Assembly (NCBI GenBank): GCA_029762595.1
Contig: JARVGJ010000017.1
Location: forward strand, 1-50,341
Reading direction: 5' to 3'
DNA from: Methanolobus sp.
GTDB taxonomy: Archaea > Halobacteriota > Methanosarcinia > Methanosarcinales > Methanosarcinaceae
Length of the DNA stretch: 50,341 nt
A program made the translations under genes and the position numbers. This document shows positions 2,034-41,257 of this stretch, piece by piece. The notes under the pieces are model-generated. The model had not been told where the DNA came from, searched no databases, and saw only the letters and a program-made list of their open reading frames with translations. The first letter of the stretch is position 1; each line of letters opens with the position of its first letter.

Positions 2034-2939
2034 TTGAGTATTCCTGACTATCAATCAATTATGTTACCTCTTCTGAAGTATGCTTCAGATGAACTTGAGC
2101 ATCACACTCGTGATGCAACAGATGAACTTGCTATTGTTTTTAATCTATCTGATGATGAGAGGAAGGAATTATTGCCAAGTGGTAAACAAGCAATTTTTGA
2201 CAATCGAGTAGGATGGGCTCGCACTTATTTGAAAAAAGCAGGCTTAATCGCCTCAAAAAAGCGAGGGTACTTTTTTATAACTCCGAGAGGTCTGAAGGCA
2301 TTATCTGAAAAACCTGATTCAATAGATGTGTCTTATTTATCGAAGTTCAATGAATTTAATGATTTTATCAATACAAGCAACAGTTCCTCAAAAGTTCATA
2401 TTTCATCAATTACAAATGAAGAATTGGATCCAGAGGAATTAATTGAAAATAATTATCTTAAATTACACGAAGAACTGATTTCTGAAATTTTAGATACGAT
2501 AAAAGATTATTCACCCTCATTTTTTGAAAAACTTGTTGTTGATGTATTGACAAAAATGGGCTATGGAGGTTCCCGCAAAGATGCCGGGCAGGCAATCGGG
2601 AAAAGCGGTGATGGCGGAATTGATGGAATTATAAAGGAAGATCGTCTTGGACTGGATGTAATCTATATTCAAGCTAAAAGATGGGATAATACTGTAGGAA
2701 GACCTGAAATTCAGAAATTTGCAGGGGCGTTAATAGGCAAGCAAGCCAAAAAAGGTGTTTTTATTACAACAGCCAATTTTTCAAAAGATGCCGAAGTTTA
2801 TGCCAAGCAGACAGGAAACATTGTATTGATCGATGGTCCGAATTTAGCCAAACTCATGATAGAATATAATGTCGGTGTTTCTACTGTCAAGACATATGAT
2901 GTTAAGAAGATAGATTTAGATTATTTTGATGAAACATGA
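2034..2939 (+). CDS. Mrr-type restriction endonuclease
   Basis: The 301-residue protein has the Mrr layout. A winged-helix N-domain (about residues 1-95, with the Mrr_N-like stretch after LPSGKQAIFDNRVGWARTYL) is followed by a linker and a C-terminal Mrr catalytic domain (about 155-285). The PD-(D/E)xK core is visible as GDGGIDGI followed by IYIQAKRW. Members of this family cut modified DNA (type IV restriction). The start is TTG with AGGATG upstream; no ATG is available near it. The gene is visibly more AT-rich than its neighbours and stands alone with no methylase, as expected for a modification-dependent enzyme acquired by transfer. The DNA modification it recognises cannot be read from the sequence. 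Confidence 0.88.
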   Translation: MSIPDYQSIMLPLLKYASDELEHHTRDATDELAIVFNLSDDERKELLPSGKQAIFDNRVGWARTYLKKAGLIASKKRGYFFITPRGLKALSEKPDSIDVSYLSKFNEFNDFINTSNSSSKVHISSITNEELDPEELIENNYLKLHEELISEILDTIKDYSPSFFEKLVVDVLTKMGYGGSRKDAGQAIGKSGDGGIDGIIKEDRLGLDVIYIQAKRWDNTVGRPEIQKFAGALIGKQAKKGVFITTANFSKDAEVYAKQTGNIVLIDGPNLAKLMIEYNVGVSTVKTYDVKKIDLDYFDET

Positions 2940-9803: not shown

Positions 9804-10214
9804 TCATAGAGTTATTTGTCTTATTACTATGGGATATTCTGAACTATAATTATACAATATTATGTCAAAACTATTCCATAATCCCAAATCCATCTGAAAT
9901 TGATTTGTAAAATTATCCTCCAAAGTAACTTTGGTTGTATATTCCTCTGTCCTTCCTGGAGGAAGAGAAAGTTTTAATAATAACCATTTTGGCTTTGATC
10001 GACTGATATATTTGTCAGGGATTAGCTCATACGCTTCCTTCAATAGTGATTTATTTGTGGAATCGAACATCTCAATTACAACTTTATGTTCAATGACATC
10101 TTTATTACCAACTGAAAAAAGAGGAAGAGTGTCTCCCGCAAAAAAGAAAGGCATCGCAGCAAAGCATATCGCAATTGCCGTTACAATAGCAATAAATACG
10201 TATGGCTTCTTCAT
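9804..10214 (-). CDS. small membrane-anchored or secreted protein of unknown function
   Basis: The 136-residue protein starts MKKPYVFIAIVTAIAICFAAMPF, with a single N-terminal hydrophobic segment (about residues 5-28). This acts as a signal or anchor, and the remaining ~108 residues lie outside the cell. That part has alternating short strands (KVVIEMFDSTNKSLL, WLLLKLSLPPGRTEEYTTKVTL), suggesting a beta-sandwich. No cysteines or catalytic motif stand out, and I do not recognise the family. It is AT-rich compared with the folate genes around it and lies in the interval that splits metV from metF, so it may have arrived with the rearrangement. Confidence 0.6.
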   Translation of the reverse strand: MKKPYVFIAIVTAIAICFAAMPFFFAGDTLPLFSVGNKDVIEHKVVIEMFDSTNKSLLKEAYELIPDKYISRSKPKWLLLKLSLPPGRTEEYTTKVTLEDNFTNQFQMDLGLWNSFDIILYNYSSEYPIVIRQITL

Positions 10215-10282
10215 TTTTTCCTTCTTATTATGGAAACAGCATATTCGTTGATGATTTGAAGATAAATTACAATGTTGAAGTT

Positions 10283-10912
10283 CTAGTTTCTACAGAGTAT
10301 CTGTCCTTCAATCTCTTCAGCAAGCCACACCTTCTCCATCAGGTCCTGCCTGCCCATCTTCTCCAGCCTGCTGCAGATCCTGTCCCACACACAGTCCTTA
10401 TCGGTATCAACCTCGCACTTTCCCTCCATCGAACCACCACAGGGGCCATTGAGGAGCTGTTTTGGACATTGTCCTTTGGGGCAGATACCACCAAAATAAT
10501 ACACAGTACAATCACCGCACATGGCACAGAGCCGGGGTATCACTTCTCCCTGTGAGCGTCCACCAAGGGATTCGGTATTATTTGAGGGGTAGACCGGGAT
10601 ATCTGTCACCCCGGCTATTATGGATACACCACTTCCACATGCCATTACAAGGATAGCTTTTGCCTCTCTTATGGCAGGGTTCTTTTCAACAAGGGAATCA
10701 AAGGATGCCACACTGCAGGCGGCGCTTGGGATGACCCATCCCACAACATTCTTCCCGTTAACCTCAAGGCGCTGTTGCATCATGGTCACTTCCGGCTCGC
10801 CGCCAACATGCAGCTTTGCAGCACAGGCATTGCAGCCGATGATGAAGATATCATCTTCGTCCTTCAGCAGTTTTAGTATCTCCTCAAAAGGTTTTGCTGA
10901 TGAGATTATCAT
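10283..10912 (-). CDS. metV: MetV-like iron-sulfur/zinc partner of methylene-THF reductase
   Basis: The 209-residue cysteine-rich protein is of the methylenetetrahydrofolate reductase C-terminal-domain family (MetV of acetogens), which partners MetF. Cysteines are clustered: GCNACAAKLHVGG, PSAACS, MACGSG, CAMCGDCTVYYFGGICPKGQCPKQLLNGPCGG, then C-terminal Cys residues. The pattern suggests metal or Fe-S binding. The ATG overlaps the end of the upstream dihydropteroate synthase-like gene by four bases, so the two are coupled. In other organisms metV sits next to metF; here metF is 1 kb downstream behind an IS630 scar. The electron donor is unknown. Confidence 0.85.
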   Translation of the reverse strand: MIISSAKPFEEILKLLKDEDDIFIIGCNACAAKLHVGGEPEVTMMQQRLEVNGKNVVGWVIPSAACSVASFDSLVEKNPAIREAKAILVMACGSGVSIIAGVTDIPVYPSNNTESLGGRSQGEVIPRLCAMCGDCTVYYFGGICPKGQCPKQLLNGPCGGSMEGKCEVDTDKDCVWDRICSRLEKMGRQDLMEKVWLAEEIEGQILCRN

Positions 10913-31119: not shown

Positions 31120-32427
31120 TTACCAGCAGATGCCCTGGTAATCTATCTCTATGCTGAGCTTCTCTGGATTGATCAGATGCCTGCCGTCAATGACCACACG
31201 GTTGGCCATGAGGCCAAACTCTTTGTCAAGGTTCCTGAACTTGTCCCACTCTGTCATGATAAGACAGCCCTCGGCTTCTGTCAGGGCATCAGATGCGCTC
31301 TTACAGTATGTTACATCTTTGAAGAGCTTTTTCATGCTTTCCTCTGCCATGGGGTCGTATGCGGCGATATCAGCTCCAAGGCGCAGCAGTTCCTCGATAA
31401 CCGGAATGGATCTTGATTCCCTTATGTCATCAGTGTCGTTCTTAAAGGCCAGGCCCAGGACGGCTATCCTCTTTCCTTTCAGGTCGCCTTTCATGTCGCT
31501 TATCTTTTCCCGCAGCAGCTCCACCATCTTCAGGGGCTGCCGGTTGTTTATATCAACAACGGACTGGAGGAGCTGTGGTGCATATCCCATGTCCCTGGCC
31601 TTGCCTATCAGTGCCTTGACATCCTTGGGGAAACATGAGCCTCCAAAACCTGCCCCGCAGTTGAGGAACTGGCGCTCTATCCTGAAATCCGTGCCTACGG
31701 CGTCCATGACCTCATAGGTGTCGATGCCAAGTTGCTTGCAGATGTTGCCCACCTCGTTGGCAAAGGATATCTTAGTTGCCAAAAATGAATTGTTGACATA
31801 TTTGATCATCTCCGCGGTCCTGGGATTTGTGTGTGTTACCGGACGGTCCAGCTTGCGATAGAGCTCTGACACCACAAAGAACGACCTCTGGTCAATTGCA
31901 CCCACCACGATCTTGTCCGGATGCATGAAGTCATACACAGCCTTGCCTTCCCGCAAAAACTCCGGGTTCATCACAACCCCAAAGTCCCTGCCCGCCTTCT
32001 TCCCCGAATACTCCTCCAGAATCGGAAGCACCACCTTGTCGGTAGTCTCCGGCACCACAGTACTTTTCACAACAACAACATGATAGTGATCCTTCTTAGC
32101 TATCGCCCTGCCAAGGCTGGCACTTGCCGCCTTAACAATTGAGAGGTCAATACCCCCATCCTCCCCCGACGGCGTCCCCACGCAGATAAACGAAGCATCC
32201 GAGTTCGCCACAGCATAATCATAATCCGAGGTCGCAATGAGCGTCTTTTGCGTGTGCCTTGCCAGCAGCTCATCCAGCCCCTCCTCCCATATGGGCGCAA
32301 CCCCTGAATTGATCAGTTTTACCTTCTCCTCATCGATGTCAATACAGATAACCTCATGCCCAAGCTCCGCAAAGCAAGCCGCAGAGACAGAGCCAACATA
32401 GCCTGAGCCAATGATTGATACTTTCAT
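31120..32427 (-). CDS. ugd: UDP-glucose/nucleotide-sugar 6-dehydrogenase
   Basis: The 435-residue protein oxidises a UDP-sugar to the uronic acid with NAD, for surface polysaccharide or N-glycan synthesis. It has the N-terminal Rossmann motif IIGSGYVGSVSAACFAELGH, the VVKSTVVP segment, the catalytic Cys265 in GAGFGGSCFPKD and the C-terminal UDP-binding domain (VLGLAFKNDTDDIRESRSI). The assignment to UDP-glucose rather than another UDP-sugar is not certain from sequence. The following two small genes on the same strand are of unknown function. Confidence 0.92.
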   Translation of the reverse strand: MKVSIIGSGYVGSVSAACFAELGHEVICIDIDEEKVKLINSGVAPIWEEGLDELLARHTQKTLIATSDYDYAVANSDASFICVGTPSGEDGGIDLSIVKAASASLGRAIAKKDHYHVVVVKSTVVPETTDKVVLPILEEYSGKKAGRDFGVVMNPEFLREGKAVYDFMHPDKIVVGAIDQRSFFVVSELYRKLDRPVTHTNPRTAEMIKYVNNSFLATKISFANEVGNICKQLGIDTYEVMDAVGTDFRIERQFLNCGAGFGGSCFPKDVKALIGKARDMGYAPQLLQSVVDINNRQPLKMVELLREKISDMKGDLKGKRIAVLGLAFKNDTDDIRESRSIPVIEELLRLGADIAAYDPMAEESMKKLFKDVTYCKSASDALTEAEGCLIMTEWDKFRNLDKEFGLMANRVVIDGRHLINPEKLSIEIDYQGICW

Positions 32428-32503: not shown

Positions 32504-35428
32504 TTAACTGCTTGGTGTGGTAATATATTCATAAATGGAATCTTCAACAGGATGATTCATTTTGTACCTCACTTTTACAACTGAGACATTCTTGTTGTTT
32601 TCATCTACTAAAGTAGCTTCTTCGAAGCTATTATCAATAGGTGTTACATCTCCCATGTAATAGAAATCGTTACTTTCAGCATTGCTTTTTTTGATGAATA
32701 AAAGCAAACGAAGTCCATTTCTATAATTTCTAATGGTAGATACATCATTACTATTTAATGATCTTCTGGATTTAGACATCCATTCAAATTCAGAATTGTT
32801 AACAAATCCTTCTTCATATTTTGTAGTACTCGAAATATGTTCTTCTTTGTGATAGTTTACGAATATTAGACAATTTTTCTTTTGAGGATGAATCAGATAT
32901 CCTCCAACATTTTGTGCTAAAGGATTTTGGTCCCAATTTAGAATTCTAAAAACATCTTTTCGAGAATATTTCTGATACAATAGGAACCCATCAACATACT
33001 TATCTTTGTCAAAGTTTCGATCATAAATTGTTTCGGAATAGTCCAGCATATCACTTAGAAAACGCAAGAAAGTTTCATTTTTTAATGTATCCACAAATTT
33101 ATCACTAAATAAGAGATTTCCGCTTTGATAAGAAACGATGCTTAAATCGTATATTTTACTAACACTAATTAGATTGCCATTATGCCTTTCAGTTACAAAG
33201 TCAAAATTGATGTTTTTGATACATGATTCTATTGTTTCATCAGGAATCGAAATACCATATTTATCAAAAACAACTGACTTTAATTCTCCCTTTTGCAAAA
33301 CATTTCCAGAAATCAGCTTTTTAAGAATAACAACTTCCTCCACTCTTTTAGTGTTTGCAATTTCATTGGAGAATAGTTCAAGAAGCTTGATTTCTTTATC
33401 AGATAGTTTGTTTTGTAAGGATTCCTCTTGACTTGATACAAAGTTAAAATAGGATTTTGAATAGTTTACATATAGTTGTGGATCTCTAGAACCGTGTTCT
33501 ACAAAGTCCATCATCATAGGAATTTGACCGATCTTAAACTTTAAAAGTTCATACTCTTTGTCAAGATCTTTTTTGAGTTGTAAATTCGCTTTGTCGATTG
33601 ATGCAAAAATTCTCTCATGTGTAATTTTATCAAAATTAATAGTTGAAGCACCAGGAATTAAACTACTTCCACTTAACATCAATTTGCGTAATGTATCCTT
33701 GTTGTAACTAGTATCTCCATACAATGCAATCGGAACTAAGTAGTTGTTATTGTAATTACCTATGAAATCAATTACAGTTAGGTATTCTTTATCGTTAGCT
33801 TTACGCAACCCTCTTCCTAACTGTTGGACAAAAATAATGGCTGATGCTGTTGGTCTCAACATAATTACTTGATTCACTTTTGGAATATCTACTCCTTCAT
33901 TGAAGATATCAACAGTAAATATATAATCTAATTTTTCCAATGGATCGGAACTTTCCAATCTATTGATTGCATCAATTCTCTCGTCTTCATTATTGTTTCC
34001 AGATAATGAAACAGTTCTGTAACCTATTGAATTAAATGCATCAGAAAGTTCCTGGCTTTCAGCTACACCACTGCAAAATATTAATCCTCTAATGCAACCA
34101 TTGTCACATCCATAAAATTCAGCCTTTTCAATTATTCTATTTACACGCTCTTTTGCAGTTAATAAAGAAAAATCTGCATTTTCATCTAAAGGTTGACCAT
34201 CTACTGTAATATCAGTAACTCCAAAATAATGGAAATTTGATAGCATATTTTCTTTTAAAGCTCTATGCAATCGAATTTCGTACGCAATATTGTGTTCGAA
34301 TTGAGAAAAGATATCAAAACCATCTGTTCTTTCAGGAGTAGCAGTCATGCCCAACAAAAACTTTGGTTTAAAGTGATTGAGGATTTTTTGGTAAGTTTCT
34401 GCACCTGCTCGATGAGTTTCATCTATAACTATATAATCAAAATGACTTTCATCAAATTGGTTCAAATGTTCATCTCTGGAGATTGTTTGAATCGTTGAAA
34501 AAATAAAATCAGCATCTATCTCCCTTTCACTACCTGAATAAATCCCCATTCTTTGTTTAGTTCCAATAATATTTTGAAAGCTAGCCATAGCTTTTTCTGC
34601 AATGTTTTTTCGATGGACTATGAATTAAAATTTGTTAGGATTATATTCTTTCACATCAAATGCAGATAAATAGGTTTTTCCTGTACCTGTTGCAGAAATT
34701 ACTAGAGCTTTATTTTTTCCATGTATCCTCAAATTTTTTAGATTTCTCAATGCTTCTTTTTGCATTTTATTAGGAATAATTGACTTTTCATGTTTATTTG
34801 CAATGCTCTTTTTTGAAATTGAAATAAATGTATGTTTCAAAGAATAATCTCTTTCATAAGAATCAATGAAATCATCATCTACCCATGTAGCATTTTCGAA
34901 CTCAGATTGAAATTCTTTGATTGAATCATTTATTAATTTAGACTTGTCTGTAGCTGAAATTCTCAAATTCCATTCTTTGTTTGAGCATAATGCATTAGCT
35001 GTAAGATTGCTACTTCCAACAATAAGGTCATATTGACTGTTTTTTTTGAATAAATAACCCTTCGCATGGAAATCAGAGTCAACTGCTATTTTTAGCTCTA
35101 TATTTTTGAGTTTTAGTAACGATCTTAAAGCTTCAGGTTGGGTAAAATATTGATACTGGGATACCAATATTTTCCCTTTAATTCCAGAGCTTTCAAGTTC
35201 TAGAAGTTGATTTATTAAAGAAATCACACCACTTTTTGTTGCAAATGCTACTGAAAACCAAAATTCATCACAATTTTTGAGCTCTTTTAATATAGTTTGT
35301 AGTACTTTTATTCCATTGTCTGTGTCATTAACTAGCAATTCTGGAAGAAACTCTCTTTTTGAAACTAATGATCTATCAATGAATCCAGTTTTTAAGCTAT
35401 CTAGCAACTGTATAGAAAAATCGTTCAT
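32504..35428 (-). pseudogene. PLD-nuclease/SF2 helicase/DUF3427 gene with one in-frame stop
   Basis: Two open segments, 35428-34625 (267 codons) and 34588-32504 (694 codons), are the same frame of one gene. They are split by a TAA at 34627-34625. Reading through it gives EYNPNKF-stop-FIVHRKNIAEKAMASF, a normal helicase continuation, so a single change (probably TTA to TAA) inactivated it. The intact product would be about 974 residues. It has a phospholipase D-type nuclease domain (HAKGYLF, GSSNLTANAL), Walker A ATGTGKTYLSA, DEAH-type box VIDETHRAG, helicase motif VI QQLGRGLRKA and a C-terminal DUF3427 region. The gene is AT-rich and coupled to a NUDIX gene. Such fusions occur among restriction-like and defence genes. 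Readthrough, or use of two polypeptides, cannot be excluded. Confidence 0.82.
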
Positions 35429-35429
35429 T

Positions 35430-35831
35430 TTAGTATTCCTTCATTAATTTTGAAACAATTGGAAGGTCTGCTTCAGCCCAATCTAATGATGATAACCCTT
35501 CTGAATTTAACCATTTGAAATCAATATGTTCTTTCAAATTCAAATCTAAATTTGAAGCACGACATATAAAACTGTGCATAGTAATACTAAAATCAGGATA
35601 TTGATGCCTTACTGTTAAAAAATCCTTTTCTATTTTTATGTTCATATCCAGTTCTTCCAATAATTCACGCTTTAATGCTTGCTTTTTTGTTTCACCAGAT
35701 TTCATTTTACCACCAGGAAATTCATACTTTAAAGAAATATAATCGTACTTTCCATAATCTCTTTGAACACATAGAATTTTGTCATCATTCATGACTATTG
35801 CTGCAACTACGTTATAATGTTTCATTTGCAT
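35430..35831 (-). CDS. MutT-like NUDIX hydrolase
   Basis: The 133-residue protein cleaves nucleoside diphosphate-X bonds, probably of (d)NTPs. The NUDIX box reads GKMKSGETKKQALKRELLEE, followed by LDM; the usual late Gly is Asp, as in several MutT-like dNTP pyrophosphohydrolases. Its N-terminus (VVAAIVMNDDKILCVQRDYG) resembles the 8-oxo-dGTP/CTP hydrolase group. AGGA lies six bases before the ATG, and a TATATAAAT element lies about 40 bases upstream. Its TAA is one base from the ATG of the PLD-helicase gene, so the two are co-translated. It is the only intact member of that pair, which suggests a nucleotide-related role in a defence unit. Confidence 0.88.
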   Translation of the reverse strand: MQMKHYNVVAAIVMNDDKILCVQRDYGKYDYISLKYEFPGGKMKSGETKKQALKRELLEELDMNIKIEKDFLTVRHQYPDFSITMHSFICRASNLDLNLKEHIDFKWLNSEGLSSLDWAEADLPIVSKLMKEY

Positions 35832-36208
35832 TTTACATCCTAGTAAATATAAATATGATAATTAATTTATATATTTTTTTTAAAAATCGAGTTTCTTTAG
35901 TTCACTCAGATTAGAGTATGTCTTCAAAATTTGCTTCATATCATAGTCTGTCAAAATTCTTTAATTACATATTTTTTCACATAATGCACTATAACTTACT
36001 ATGCTCCCACATTTCAATAATCTCAATTAGAAGCGCAATCCAATTCTTCAACTTTTTCTCAACATTATATTGTTGCAAACAATACTAATAATTGCCAACT
36101 CTTTTCCTCATCAAAAGTCTGGTGAAATCCAAGCTTGCCACACACCACACACTATGCCGGTAAGAAATAAATCCAATACCCCCTCTATATCCCTTTGTAG
36201 TGATCACC
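35832..36208. other. AT-rich interval, nothing recognised
   Basis: About 370 bases without a convincing gene lie between the divergent NUDIX and methyltransferase genes. The left end holds the TATA element of the NUDIX gene (minus strand, around 35866-35875). I see no tRNA, repeat or insertion end in the remainder. Confidence 0.45.
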
Positions 36209-36766
36209 ATGCTCCACACCAACCCCCACGTCTGCCCCGCAGCAATATCAGGCATCCTGGATAATCGTGTACGCAGGTGGCTGCAGGATCCCCGTAAAAT
36301 CCATGTGCCTTATGTGGAGGAAGGGATGGAAGTGCTGGAGGTCGGGTGCGGACCGGGGTTCTTCACGGGGGAGCTGGCGCGGATGGTGGGGGAGAAGGGG
36401 AAGGTTGTGGCGGTGGACCTGCAGGAGGAGATGCTGCGCAAAGTAAGGGAGAAGATCAGGGGGTCCGGGCTTGAGGGGAGGATCGTGCTGCACAGGTGTG
36501 AGGAGGACAGGCTGGGGGTATCGGGGAGTTTTGATCTTGTGTTCCTGTTCTATGTGGTCCATGAGGTGGCGGATAAGAGAGGGCTTTTCAGGCAACTTCA
36601 GGGGCTGCTTAAGGACGGAGGGGTGGTCTATCTGGCAGAGCCGCCCATACATGTTTCCGGGAGGACGTTTGAAAGGATACTTGGGGTTGCACAGGATGCG
36701 GGGTTTGAGATTATGGACAGGCCCTGGAGTTTTCCTGACAAGGTGGCGGTGCTGAAAAAGCTGTAG
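36209..36766 (+). CDS. class I SAM-dependent methyltransferase
   Basis: The protein is about 185 residues from ATG 36209 (GTGAT upstream). It is a Rossmann-type methyltransferase: motif I VLEVGCGPGFFTGELA, the acidic residue in VVAVDLQEEML, motif IV FDLVFLFYVVHEV and a post-motif LLKDGGVVYLAEP. Length suits a small-molecule (UbiE/UPF0020-like) enzyme; the substrate is unknown. It is markedly more GC-rich than its AT-rich surroundings. It converges on a hicBA module 40 bases away. Parts of this gene recur at 37754-37852 in the same order, so it belongs to a duplicated block. Confidence 0.85.
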   Translation: MLHTNPHVCPAAISGILDNRVRRWLQDPRKIHVPYVEEGMEVLEVGCGPGFFTGELARMVGEKGKVVAVDLQEEMLRKVREKIRGSGLEGRIVLHRCEEDRLGVSGSFDLVFLFYVVHEVADKRGLFRQLQGLLKDGGVVYLAEPPIHVSGRTFERILGVAQDAGFEIMDRPWSFPDKVAVLKKL

Positions 36767-40366: not shown

Positions 40367-40390
40367 AAGAACACCTATCAAGTGACCCCA

Positions 40391-40837
40391 ATGAACGCAC
40401 AGAACCCAATTCCTCAAAAAGAACAGCTTCTCCCCCTCCTGCGTGAATTCTTCCGGGCAGAGGAGTGCGTGGAGCTTGCATATCTTTTCGGCTCGCTTGC
40501 TGAGGGGAAAGGCGGGGCTCTCAGTGACATCGATATAGGCGTCTATCTGTCCGGCACGCTGACAAAGGCTGATAGGGGTCGTAAGCGCATTGAGCTGATT
40601 GGCAGGCTCATGTCCCTCCTCAGGAGTGACAGGGTCGATCTGGTGCTGATCAATGATGTTTCACCGGTGCTTAAATTCGAGATAATACGGCCAAATGTCC
40701 TGCTATTTGAAAGGGACCCTGACCTGAAAGTGGACGTGGAGCAGCGTATCATGTCGGTGTACCTGGACTGGAAATACTATGAGGACCGCATGAATCAACA
40801 TCTTCTCAAAAGGATAATGGAAAAGGGACTGACCTGA
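40391..40837 (+). CDS. mntA: MntA-type nucleotidyltransferase antitoxin
   Basis: The minimal nucleotidyltransferase is about 148 residues from ATG 40391 (GTGA upstream); a GTG at 40382 is possible. The catalytic motif GSX10DXD is intact in YLFGSLAEGKGGALSDIDIG. In the HepT-MntA system this enzyme transfers AMP units to a tyrosine of the HepT toxin and so neutralises it. The stop codon is followed at once by the hepT start, the usual gene pair. It lies in the accessory region with hicBA and the PLD-helicase gene. Confidence 0.9.
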   Translation: MNAQNPIPQKEQLLPLLREFFRAEECVELAYLFGSLAEGKGGALSDIDIGVYLSGTLTKADRGRKRIELIGRLMSLLRSDRVDLVLINDVSPVLKFEIIRPNVLLFERDPDLKVDVEQRIMSVYLDWKYYEDRMNQHLLKRIMEKGLT

Positions 40838-41257
40838 ATGGATGGTAACGACAAAATACTCCGGAAACTTAACTTCATGCAAAAATGCGTGAGTTATCTG
40901 AAGTCGGTGGATGCGGACAGCTTTGAACTGGAAAAAAATTACCAGCTGCGTAGTGCTGTCGAACGTAATTTCCAGCTTGCCATTGAAAGTGCAATAGACA
41001 TCGGTGAGATGATAATCTCCAGGGAAGGGTTCGAAAGGCCCGAAATATATCGGAGTGTGTTCCTTATATTAGGCAAGCACGGGATCATTCCCCCGGAGTT
41101 TGCAGAAGGCTTCGCTCAGGCAGCAGGTTTCAGGAATGTACTGGTCCATATCTATGAAGAAATGGATATCGATATCCTGCATATGTTCCTGACAGAAAGG
41201 TTAGAGGATTTTGATGAGTTTGCCAGGCATACTGCCAGGTATCTAAGCAGGGAATAA
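40838..41257 (+). CDS. hepT: HepT-type HEPN ribonuclease toxin
   Basis: The 139-residue all-helical HEPN protein (formerly DUF86) carries the RX4HXY motif intact in FRNVLVHIYEE: catalytic Arg and His plus the Tyr that MntA modifies. The preceding helix SAVERNFQLAIESAIDIGEMI is typical of the family. It starts directly after the mntA stop. With MntA it forms a complete type VII toxin-antitoxin pair. Both catalytic motifs are intact, unlike the broken hicA nearby. Confidence 0.92.
   Translation: MDGNDKILRKLNFMQKCVSYLKSVDADSFELEKNYQLRSAVERNFQLAIESAIDIGEMIISREGFERPEIYRSVFLILGKHGIIPPEFAEGFAQAAGFRNVLVHIYEEMDIDILHMFLTERLEDFDEFARHTARYLSRE

Follow-up and report, generated by a model that had tools for sequence, protein, structure and literature searches.

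A NUDIX hydrolase beside an interrupted SauUSI homologue in Methanolobus: a candidate nucleotide-pool guard for Type IV restriction

INTRODUCTION

What could a small NUDIX hydrolase contribute to the nuclease gene that starts immediately after it? The question arises from a 50,341-nucleotide stretch of Methanolobus sp. DNA (assembly GCA_029762595.1, contig JARVGJ010000017.1, positions 1–50,341; the whole stretch is referred to below as the window), in which an earlier reading made from the letters alone (the sequence-only reading) had picked out a NUDIX gene and a gene encoding a PLD nuclease, a superfamily 2 (SF2) helicase and a DUF3427 region as a candidate defence pair. Here we report that the large gene is well supported, on the basis of its translation, as a homologue of SauUSI, a Type IV restriction enzyme directed against 5-methyl-/5-hydroxymethylcytosine DNA, and that SauUSI nearly always has a NUDIX of the window's type (the family NUDIX) beside it; we make no claim that, conversely, every such NUDIX works with a nuclease. 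We lean towards the view that the two genes make up a two-gene Type IV restriction cassette, in which the NUDIX would keep 5-modified dCTP out of host DNA and so spare the cell's own genome. The substrate of the NUDIX and its adjacency to SauUSI are well supported, whereas the guard role is something that we infer.

The adjacency itself has surfaced before. A figure legend describes the small proteins beside Streptococcus SauUSI homologues as MutT homologues (PMC7641849), and in Streptococcus suis the PADLOC candidate PDC-S07 and restriction–modification (RM) type IV formed the only consistently co-localised pair (23/23; PMC12813430). NUDIX is mentioned 0 times in the SauUSI structure paper (PMC7913695), and no functional explanation for the adjacency turned up in the literature searches made. 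What is new here is the substrate link, counts that span phyla, a second nuclease type with which the NUDIX pairs, the fusions and the genomic slot. SauUSI is a main barrier to gene transfer in Staphylococcus aureus, and nucleases dependent on 5-methylcytosine (5mC) are widespread; the pairing makes testable how cells escape cutting their own DNA when it carries salvaged 5-methyl-dCTP, a gene listed in defence surveys only as candidate PDC-S07 acquires a probable substrate and function, and the same logic of a restriction enzyme with a pool cleaner could be sought for other modified bases.

RESULTS AND DISCUSSION

The large gene and its in-frame stop

The NUDIX open reading frame (ORF; 35831–35430, minus strand) stops one base ahead of the ATG of the large gene at 35428, as the sequence-only reading had it. 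SauUSI consists of a PLD nuclease, an SF2 ATPase and a C-terminal domain requiring 5-methyl- or 5-hydroxymethylcytosine, and it shreds DNA (PMC3874153, PMC7913695, PMC12707154), its DUF3427 being an SRA-type target recognition domain (PMC7913695, PMC12707154). All the domains first read in the large gene were recovered by Pfam (PLDc_2 at 45 bits, ResIII, Helicase_C, and DUF3427 at 250 bits), and it was the single open frame that did not hold, an in-frame TAA dividing the gene into ORFs of 267 and 694 residues. The ATPase motifs ATGTGKT, DETH and QQLGRGLRKA are present in the translation, divided between the two ORFs. Chain 7clg was matched by the first ORF over residues 10–271 (209 bits) and by the second over residues 298–952 (524 bits); the structure table names this chain 'Putative helicase', and we take it, at 953 residues, to be SauUSI. 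The PADLOC mREase_IV model PDLC03658 (Type IV methyl-directed restriction enzyme) likewise matched the first ORF at 219 bits and the second at 542 bits. Given the matches to 7clg and to the Type IV model, the nuclease half of the finding belongs to a known family and is not an uncharacterised module. From the earlier proposal of a defence pair, what is supported is a gene of the defence type accompanied by a NUDIX. Compared to S. aureus SauUSI, the window copy has the same PLD nuclease, SF2 ATPase and C-terminal DUF3427 over the full length, and an S. aureus record (L062) has a family NUDIX immediately upstream of its SauUSI; the difference is that the window copy is split by the stop.

SauUSI is a single uninterrupted polypeptide, and the frame is unbroken (948–978 residues) in 11 of the 12 relatives inspected, L045 being broken as well. 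With a TAA at codon 268, the window copy is therefore termed an interrupted homologue rather than a working member of the family. Relative to L044, the second ORF differs at 45, 37 and 162 sites in codon positions 1, 2 and 3, respectively (141 synonymous and 74 non-synonymous codons); since the differences lie mainly at third positions, any loss would be recent. The TAA is either a recent break or an error of the 58-contig assembly and, because the nuclease gene is interrupted, the window cassette probably no longer works or was lost not long ago. Note that the adjoining NUDIX gene is intact. Two other accounts of the stop were considered: recoding, by pyrrolysine or otherwise, was dropped, as the codon is TAA and not TAG and unbroken relatives exist, and a functional split enzyme was judged unlikely, as the break falls within the ATPase, between Walker A and DETH.

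A predicted 5-modified dCTP pyrophosphohydrolase

The best match of the window NUDIX in the Protein Data Bank (PDB) is 3gwy (139 bits, E 6e-40, residues 1–131), with 49% identity. Table 1 of PMC5158307 assigns 3GWY to Q5LBB1_BACFN, the Bacteroides fragilis 5-Me-(d)CTP hydrolase, for which kcat/Km values of 4.8e6 and 4.4e6 per M per s are given with 5-Me-dCTP and 5-hydroxymethyl-dCTP, respectively; 5-hydroxy-dCTP is about 50-fold weaker and the canonical NTPs support far lower activity (PMC5158307). In a quick tree of NUDIX proteins (186 rows, 130 columns, with MutT and NudG on long branches), 3gwy falls inside a 24-row group, 21 rows of which are SauUSI partners, the window NUDIX included (SH-aLRT 91, below the 95 mark); two of the rows labelled as SauUSI-linked have their NUDIX farther off, at 1 and 5.3 kb from the SauUSI match of the scan. 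Owing to the quick method and the 130 columns, this grouping is a lead rather than a proof. The Nudix box of the window protein reads GGK...GE...REL.EE, and its G, E, R, E, E and E columns are invariant in 10/10 rows. At the position of a MutT Asn, which we take to contact the base, 91 of the 92 SauUSI-linked rows carry an Asp, as does NudG. Altogether, the window protein is probably a 5-methyl-/5-hydroxymethyl-dCTP pyrophosphohydrolase, as predicted from these comparisons. Of the substrates first suggested, a modified nucleotide (likely a 5-substituted dCTP) is thus retained and a signal nucleotide is not.

The latter suggestion would have the NUDIX degrade a signalling nucleotide, such as a cyclic oligonucleotide or an ADP-ribose derivative, and so regulate the nuclease. 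NUDIX proteins are indeed found in NAD/ADP-ribose conflict systems (PMC7159879), but the window cassette has no synthase gene and the closest relative with measured activity favours 5-substituted (d)CTP (PMC5158307), so that we give this explanation hardly any credence.

The two Escherichia coli proteins of the tree, NudG (Orf135) and MutT, share the NUDIX fold and box with the window protein, and NudG is also active on 5-methyl-dCTP (PMC5158307). Both differ in being encoded by stand-alone housekeeping genes and in being distant, on long branches, in the quick tree, and MutT has an Asn where the SauUSI-linked NUDIX has an Asp. The PADLOC model for PDC-S07 (PDLC04899) does not separate the three: it scores 156 bits on the window NUDIX, 147 on NudG and 131 on MutT. 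Because MutT and NudG also match, a PDC-S07 hit is no evidence of defence, and we dropped the label as an argument for the window gene. The breadth of the model probably explains why PDC-S07 was scored in 99.06% of Enterobacter genomes (PMC12851794); surveys that use it should be aware that it also counts housekeeping MutT and NudG.

SauUSI and the family NUDIX across phyla

Named genomes were scanned with an alignment of five SauUSI sequences, and of the 435 loci confirmed the 80 top-scoring ones were kept. With a family NUDIX called at 100 bits or more and 'near' defined as within 500 bp of SauUSI, 70 of these 80 loci have a NUDIX near; the outcome that would have refuted the sequence-only reading, a lack of NUDIX association elsewhere, is thus not what was seen. 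As an internal control, the near flanks (78 kb) contain 71 NUDIX matches and the far flanks (706 kb) two, an enrichment of about 320-fold. The NUDIX lies upstream on the same strand in 41 cases, downstream on the same strand in 23 and downstream in convergent orientation in seven; given these three arrangements, the link either survived rearrangement or arose more than once. In a draw of 299 Bacillota genomes, a NUDIX is found within 200 bp of SauUSI in 11 of 14 cases (one of the 11, G333, being the centre of the draw), and in 295 Bacteroidales genomes it stands beside both SauUSI genes found (2/2, one again the draw centre). Among close archaeal copies of SauUSI, the NUDIX is directly upstream in 12/12.

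These counts bear on another alternative, namely that a housekeeping gene of the MutT/NudG kind merely travels with the restriction gene. The failure of the PDC-S07 model to separate the window NUDIX from NudG or MutT is in keeping with it, but the enrichment beside SauUSI in three arrangements, together with fusions in both orders to an unrelated endonuclease type (see below), had already disfavoured it, and we regard it as very improbable.

A pyrophosphohydrolase of an unrelated type, the MazG-like fold, which also cleans the nucleotide pool, lies within 3 kb of SauUSI in 10 of the 80 loci, and in five (L076, L130, L139, L148 and L149) its gene is contiguous with SauUSI or with the NUDIX; a dCTP pyrophosphatase of the MazG superfamily has been linked to 5-methyl-dCTP in humans (PMC4491611).

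Partnership with other nucleases

A second, divergent class of PLD–SF2–DUF3427 proteins, about 1048 residues long in the window genus, associates with the NUDIX to a lesser degree: a NUDIX was found in 0/8 loci of the window genus and order, with 7 of 53 genes in Bacillota (6/20 among frames of at least 1000 residues), and directly adjacent at three Bacteroidales loci, one of them a fragment. The NUDIX link is thus strong for SauUSI and partial for this class.

The family NUDIX also has a partner with an unrelated nuclease fold and no ATPase. Among viral contigs matching the NUDIX profile, one group has the NUDIX gene overlapping or abutting that of an HNH endonuclease of about 275 residues, which (i) matches in its HNH part both 6ghc (5-methylcytosine-specific restriction enzyme A) and 6ghs (TagI), the TagI/ScoA3IV SRA–HNH endonucleases being among its closest known counterparts, (ii) shows a weak SAD_SRA match (22 bits, below the Pfam cut-off) and (iii) matches a PADLOC mREase_IV model. 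The NUDIX is adjacent or fused in 19 of 34 closely related viral-contig loci of this SRA-like HNH endonuclease (fused in one), many of which are near-identical prophage relatives, so that the independent events are fewer than the 34 rows; it stands beside 0/16 of the more distant loci recognised by the profile, and a further 30 HNH loci below the profile enter neither count. The same pair occurs at four Bacillota NUDIX loci and on Priestia plasmids; on Geobacillus, Tepidibacter and Aerococcus plasmids, the endonuclease has no annotated NUDIX, unannotated ones not having been searched for. Fusions exist in opposite orders, NUDIX–SRA-like–HNH (L340) and HNH–NUDIX (L396, a Paenibacillus polymyxa plasmid).

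The viral contigs, probably prophages, lend themselves to the main rival to the guard, in which the NUDIX is a weapon that depletes the 5-hydroxymethyl-dCTP or 5-methyl-dCTP made by a phage with a modified genome, while the nuclease cuts whatever modified DNA is made anyway: superinfection exclusion would pay in a prophage, and the substrate evidence from 3gwy/Q5LBB1_BACFN serves this explanation equally. It fits less well with the fact that transferred 5mC has usually been methylated in the polymer, where depleting the pool does nothing, and known SauUSI targets include Dcm-methylated plasmids (PMC3874153). We consider such a weapon rather unlikely as the explanation of the pairing, though it and the guard may both be true.

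Other neighbours could point to a link through mutation. In Collinsella aerofaciens, a plasmid gene fuses the NUDIX to a Vsr mismatch endonuclease domain (L065:5001-5990), and at two Bacteroidales loci the NUDIX lies within 400 bp of C5 methyltransferase genes, as would be expected if it limited mutation at 5mC sites, or general damage from oxidised nucleotides, and were tied to the nucleases by 5mC mutagenesis rather than by self-cutting. The strongest linkage, however, is with nucleases that destroy 5mC DNA and not with methyltransferases, and the window cassette has no DNA methyltransferase; we therefore hold this explanation to be improbable.

Of the 45 NUDIX matches in Bacteroidales, no more than a handful adjoin DUF3427 genes, and at four loci (L154, L158, L163 and L168) the family NUDIX directly adjoins a Schlafen-group-3 (SLFN-type) helicase gene, that of L154 matching PADLOC PDC-S41 at 874 bits. 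The wider NUDIX family is broader than its pairing with nucleases, and many of its members have ordinary neighbours. As a separate observation, L205:2440-5044 encodes a protein with a DUF3427 part and a NO VEIN C-terminal domain, then a weak GIY-YIG protein, then a family NUDIX, possibly a further restriction architecture.

A proposed guard of the nucleotide pool

Returning to the cassette in which the NUDIX would protect its own host, the mechanism can be laid out as follows. The SauUSI homologue would read 5-methyl- or 5-hydroxymethylcytosine through its SRA-like DUF3427 and shred such DNA with ATP. DNA polymerase incorporates 5-methyl- and 5-hydroxymethyl-dCTP about as well as dCTP (PMC10742078); by removing 5-modified dCTP, the NUDIX would keep the polymerase from writing the marks into host DNA, which, free of them, would not be taken for foreign. 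The risk would peak once the nuclease has shredded methylated DNA and freed 5-methyl-dCMP for salvage. Such a cassette would define self by policing the nucleotide pool, and not by modifying DNA.

Several observations weigh against this guard. First, SauUSI cloned by itself was active in E. coli (PMC3874153). Second, the partner is sometimes missing: 10 of the 80 named loci have no NUDIX within 500 bp, five of these having a contig edge close by; of the ten, L137 has a NUDIX at 1.05 kb, and in L141 a NUDIX lies only 18 bp away from another SauUSI copy, which is fragmented. In the genomes of four loci (L102, L114, L125 and L150), a search returned no family NUDIX above 76 bits, from which it follows that the partner is not obligatory. 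Likewise, three of the 14 Bacillota SauUSI genes have no NUDIX within 200 bp, one having a NUDIX 1.8 kb away, beside a contig-edge fragment. Third, at L047 (G096), an intact SauUSI adjoins a NUDIX with a stop (about 9922–10314), the only such case among the 12 close relatives, which either speaks against the guard being essential or reflects a sequencing mistake. Fourth, 5mC may be made in the host anyway, as the window genome carries a C5-cytosine methyltransferase gene beside a Vsr-like gene (identified by eye; L408, G000:C32, 3987–6055, on a 7.3-kb contig); conflict with this methyltransferase could be what led to the loss of SauUSI. Finally, no recurrent partner appeared in Pfam among 52 neighbours of NUDIX members that do not adjoin DUF3427 or SRA-like HNH genes; a further 12, of 64 in all, did not enter the alignment.

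More generally, nucleases that read 5-modified cytosine may carry a dedicated guard of the nucleotide pool, the same hydrolase having been acquired independently, and sometimes by fusion, by SauUSI, by the second PLD–SF2–DUF3427 class and by the SRA-like HNH enzymes; the reason would be that self is kept safe through the dNTP pool and not through a protective mark on DNA. We put this rule at a little short of an even chance. If it is true, the system would turn on its own host whenever the guard was lost or overloaded, much as a toxin does without its antitoxin.

The cassette as cargo of a restriction slot

The coordinates of the cassette and of the two genes that anchor it are given in Table 1.

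Table 1. Parts of the cassette and its two anchor genes (window coordinates)
Feature	Coordinates	Strand	Basis
NUDIX hydrolase, intact, 133 aa	35430..35831	-	ORF; Pfam NUDIX, 49-51 bits
SauUSI homologue, first ORF, 267 aa: PLD nuclease and helicase Walker A (ATGTGKT)	34625..35428	-	
PLD-like nuclease domain, FHAKGYLF...GSSN motif	34895..35266	-	Pfam PLDc_2, first-ORF residues 55-178; motif from translation
In-frame TAA at codon 268 of the SauUSI homologue	34625..34627	-	
SauUSI homologue, second ORF, 694 aa: remaining SF2 ATPase, coupler, DUF3427	32504..34588	-	
DUF3427 domain	32519..33373	-	PF11907 positions 2-280 of 280, 250 bits
Left slot anchor, UDP-glucose/GDP-mannose dehydrogenase family gene	31120..32427	-	Pfam
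Right slot anchor, SAM-dependent methyltransferase-like gene	36200..36766	+	Pfam

The GC content is 0.285–0.308 across 33–36 kb of the window and mostly 0.42–0.51 in the rest, which bears out the AT-richness first noted, and comparison within the genus, a member of the Methanosarcinaceae, indicates where it comes from. Of 27 genomes of the genus, 25 have the dehydrogenase anchor and 19 a match to the methyltransferase-like anchor. The slot is filled by (i) SauUSI and the NUDIX in six of the 27 genomes (G000, G004, G012, G014, G021 and G026; G012 has a broken SauUSI, and just one of its anchors was located); (ii) the second DUF3427 class, in reverse orientation, in ten (G002, G005, G007, G008, G013, G015, G018, G019, G022 and G025, with one anchor found each in G005 and G018); (iii) other cargo between both anchors in three, namely a C5-cytosine methyltransferase, an EcoRII-type nuclease and an HhH-GPD glycosylase in G001, a SNF2-type helicase and others in G006, and, by eye, a C5 methyltransferase, an ATPase and a PLD/helicase-like gene in G009. 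Restriction-like genes adjoin the dehydrogenase anchor in four more (G010, G011, G023 and G024), the slot is empty in one (G016, anchors about 150 bp apart), and three genomes (G003, G017 and G020) are unassigned in this census. Most cargo genes have a GC content of 0.31–0.41 and the flanks are mostly above 0.42; with cargo of low GC between fixed anchors, the AT-rich island represents the contents of a restriction slot that two fixed genes delimit.

The nearby toxin–antitoxin genes of the sequence-only reading correspond to a nucleotidyltransferase and HepT-like RNase pair at 40382–41257 (plus strand), about 4.6 kb from the cassette with a histidine kinase in between. The proximity is therefore real, but since relatives have similar genes (judged by eye) near the methyltransferase-like anchor, the pair looks like slot flank and not cargo.

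Two minor observations concern other genes. Three slot genes (L409:2882-3283, L410:422-946 and L411:10842-11612) share a YSRK/N...ITDATINTG-like stretch, one of them with an HNH domain, and they are possibly an undescribed reader of modified bases. About 30 kb from the cassette, the window also carries an Mrr-type restriction endonuclease gene (Mrr_N and Mrr_cat by Pfam; 2034–2939, plus strand).

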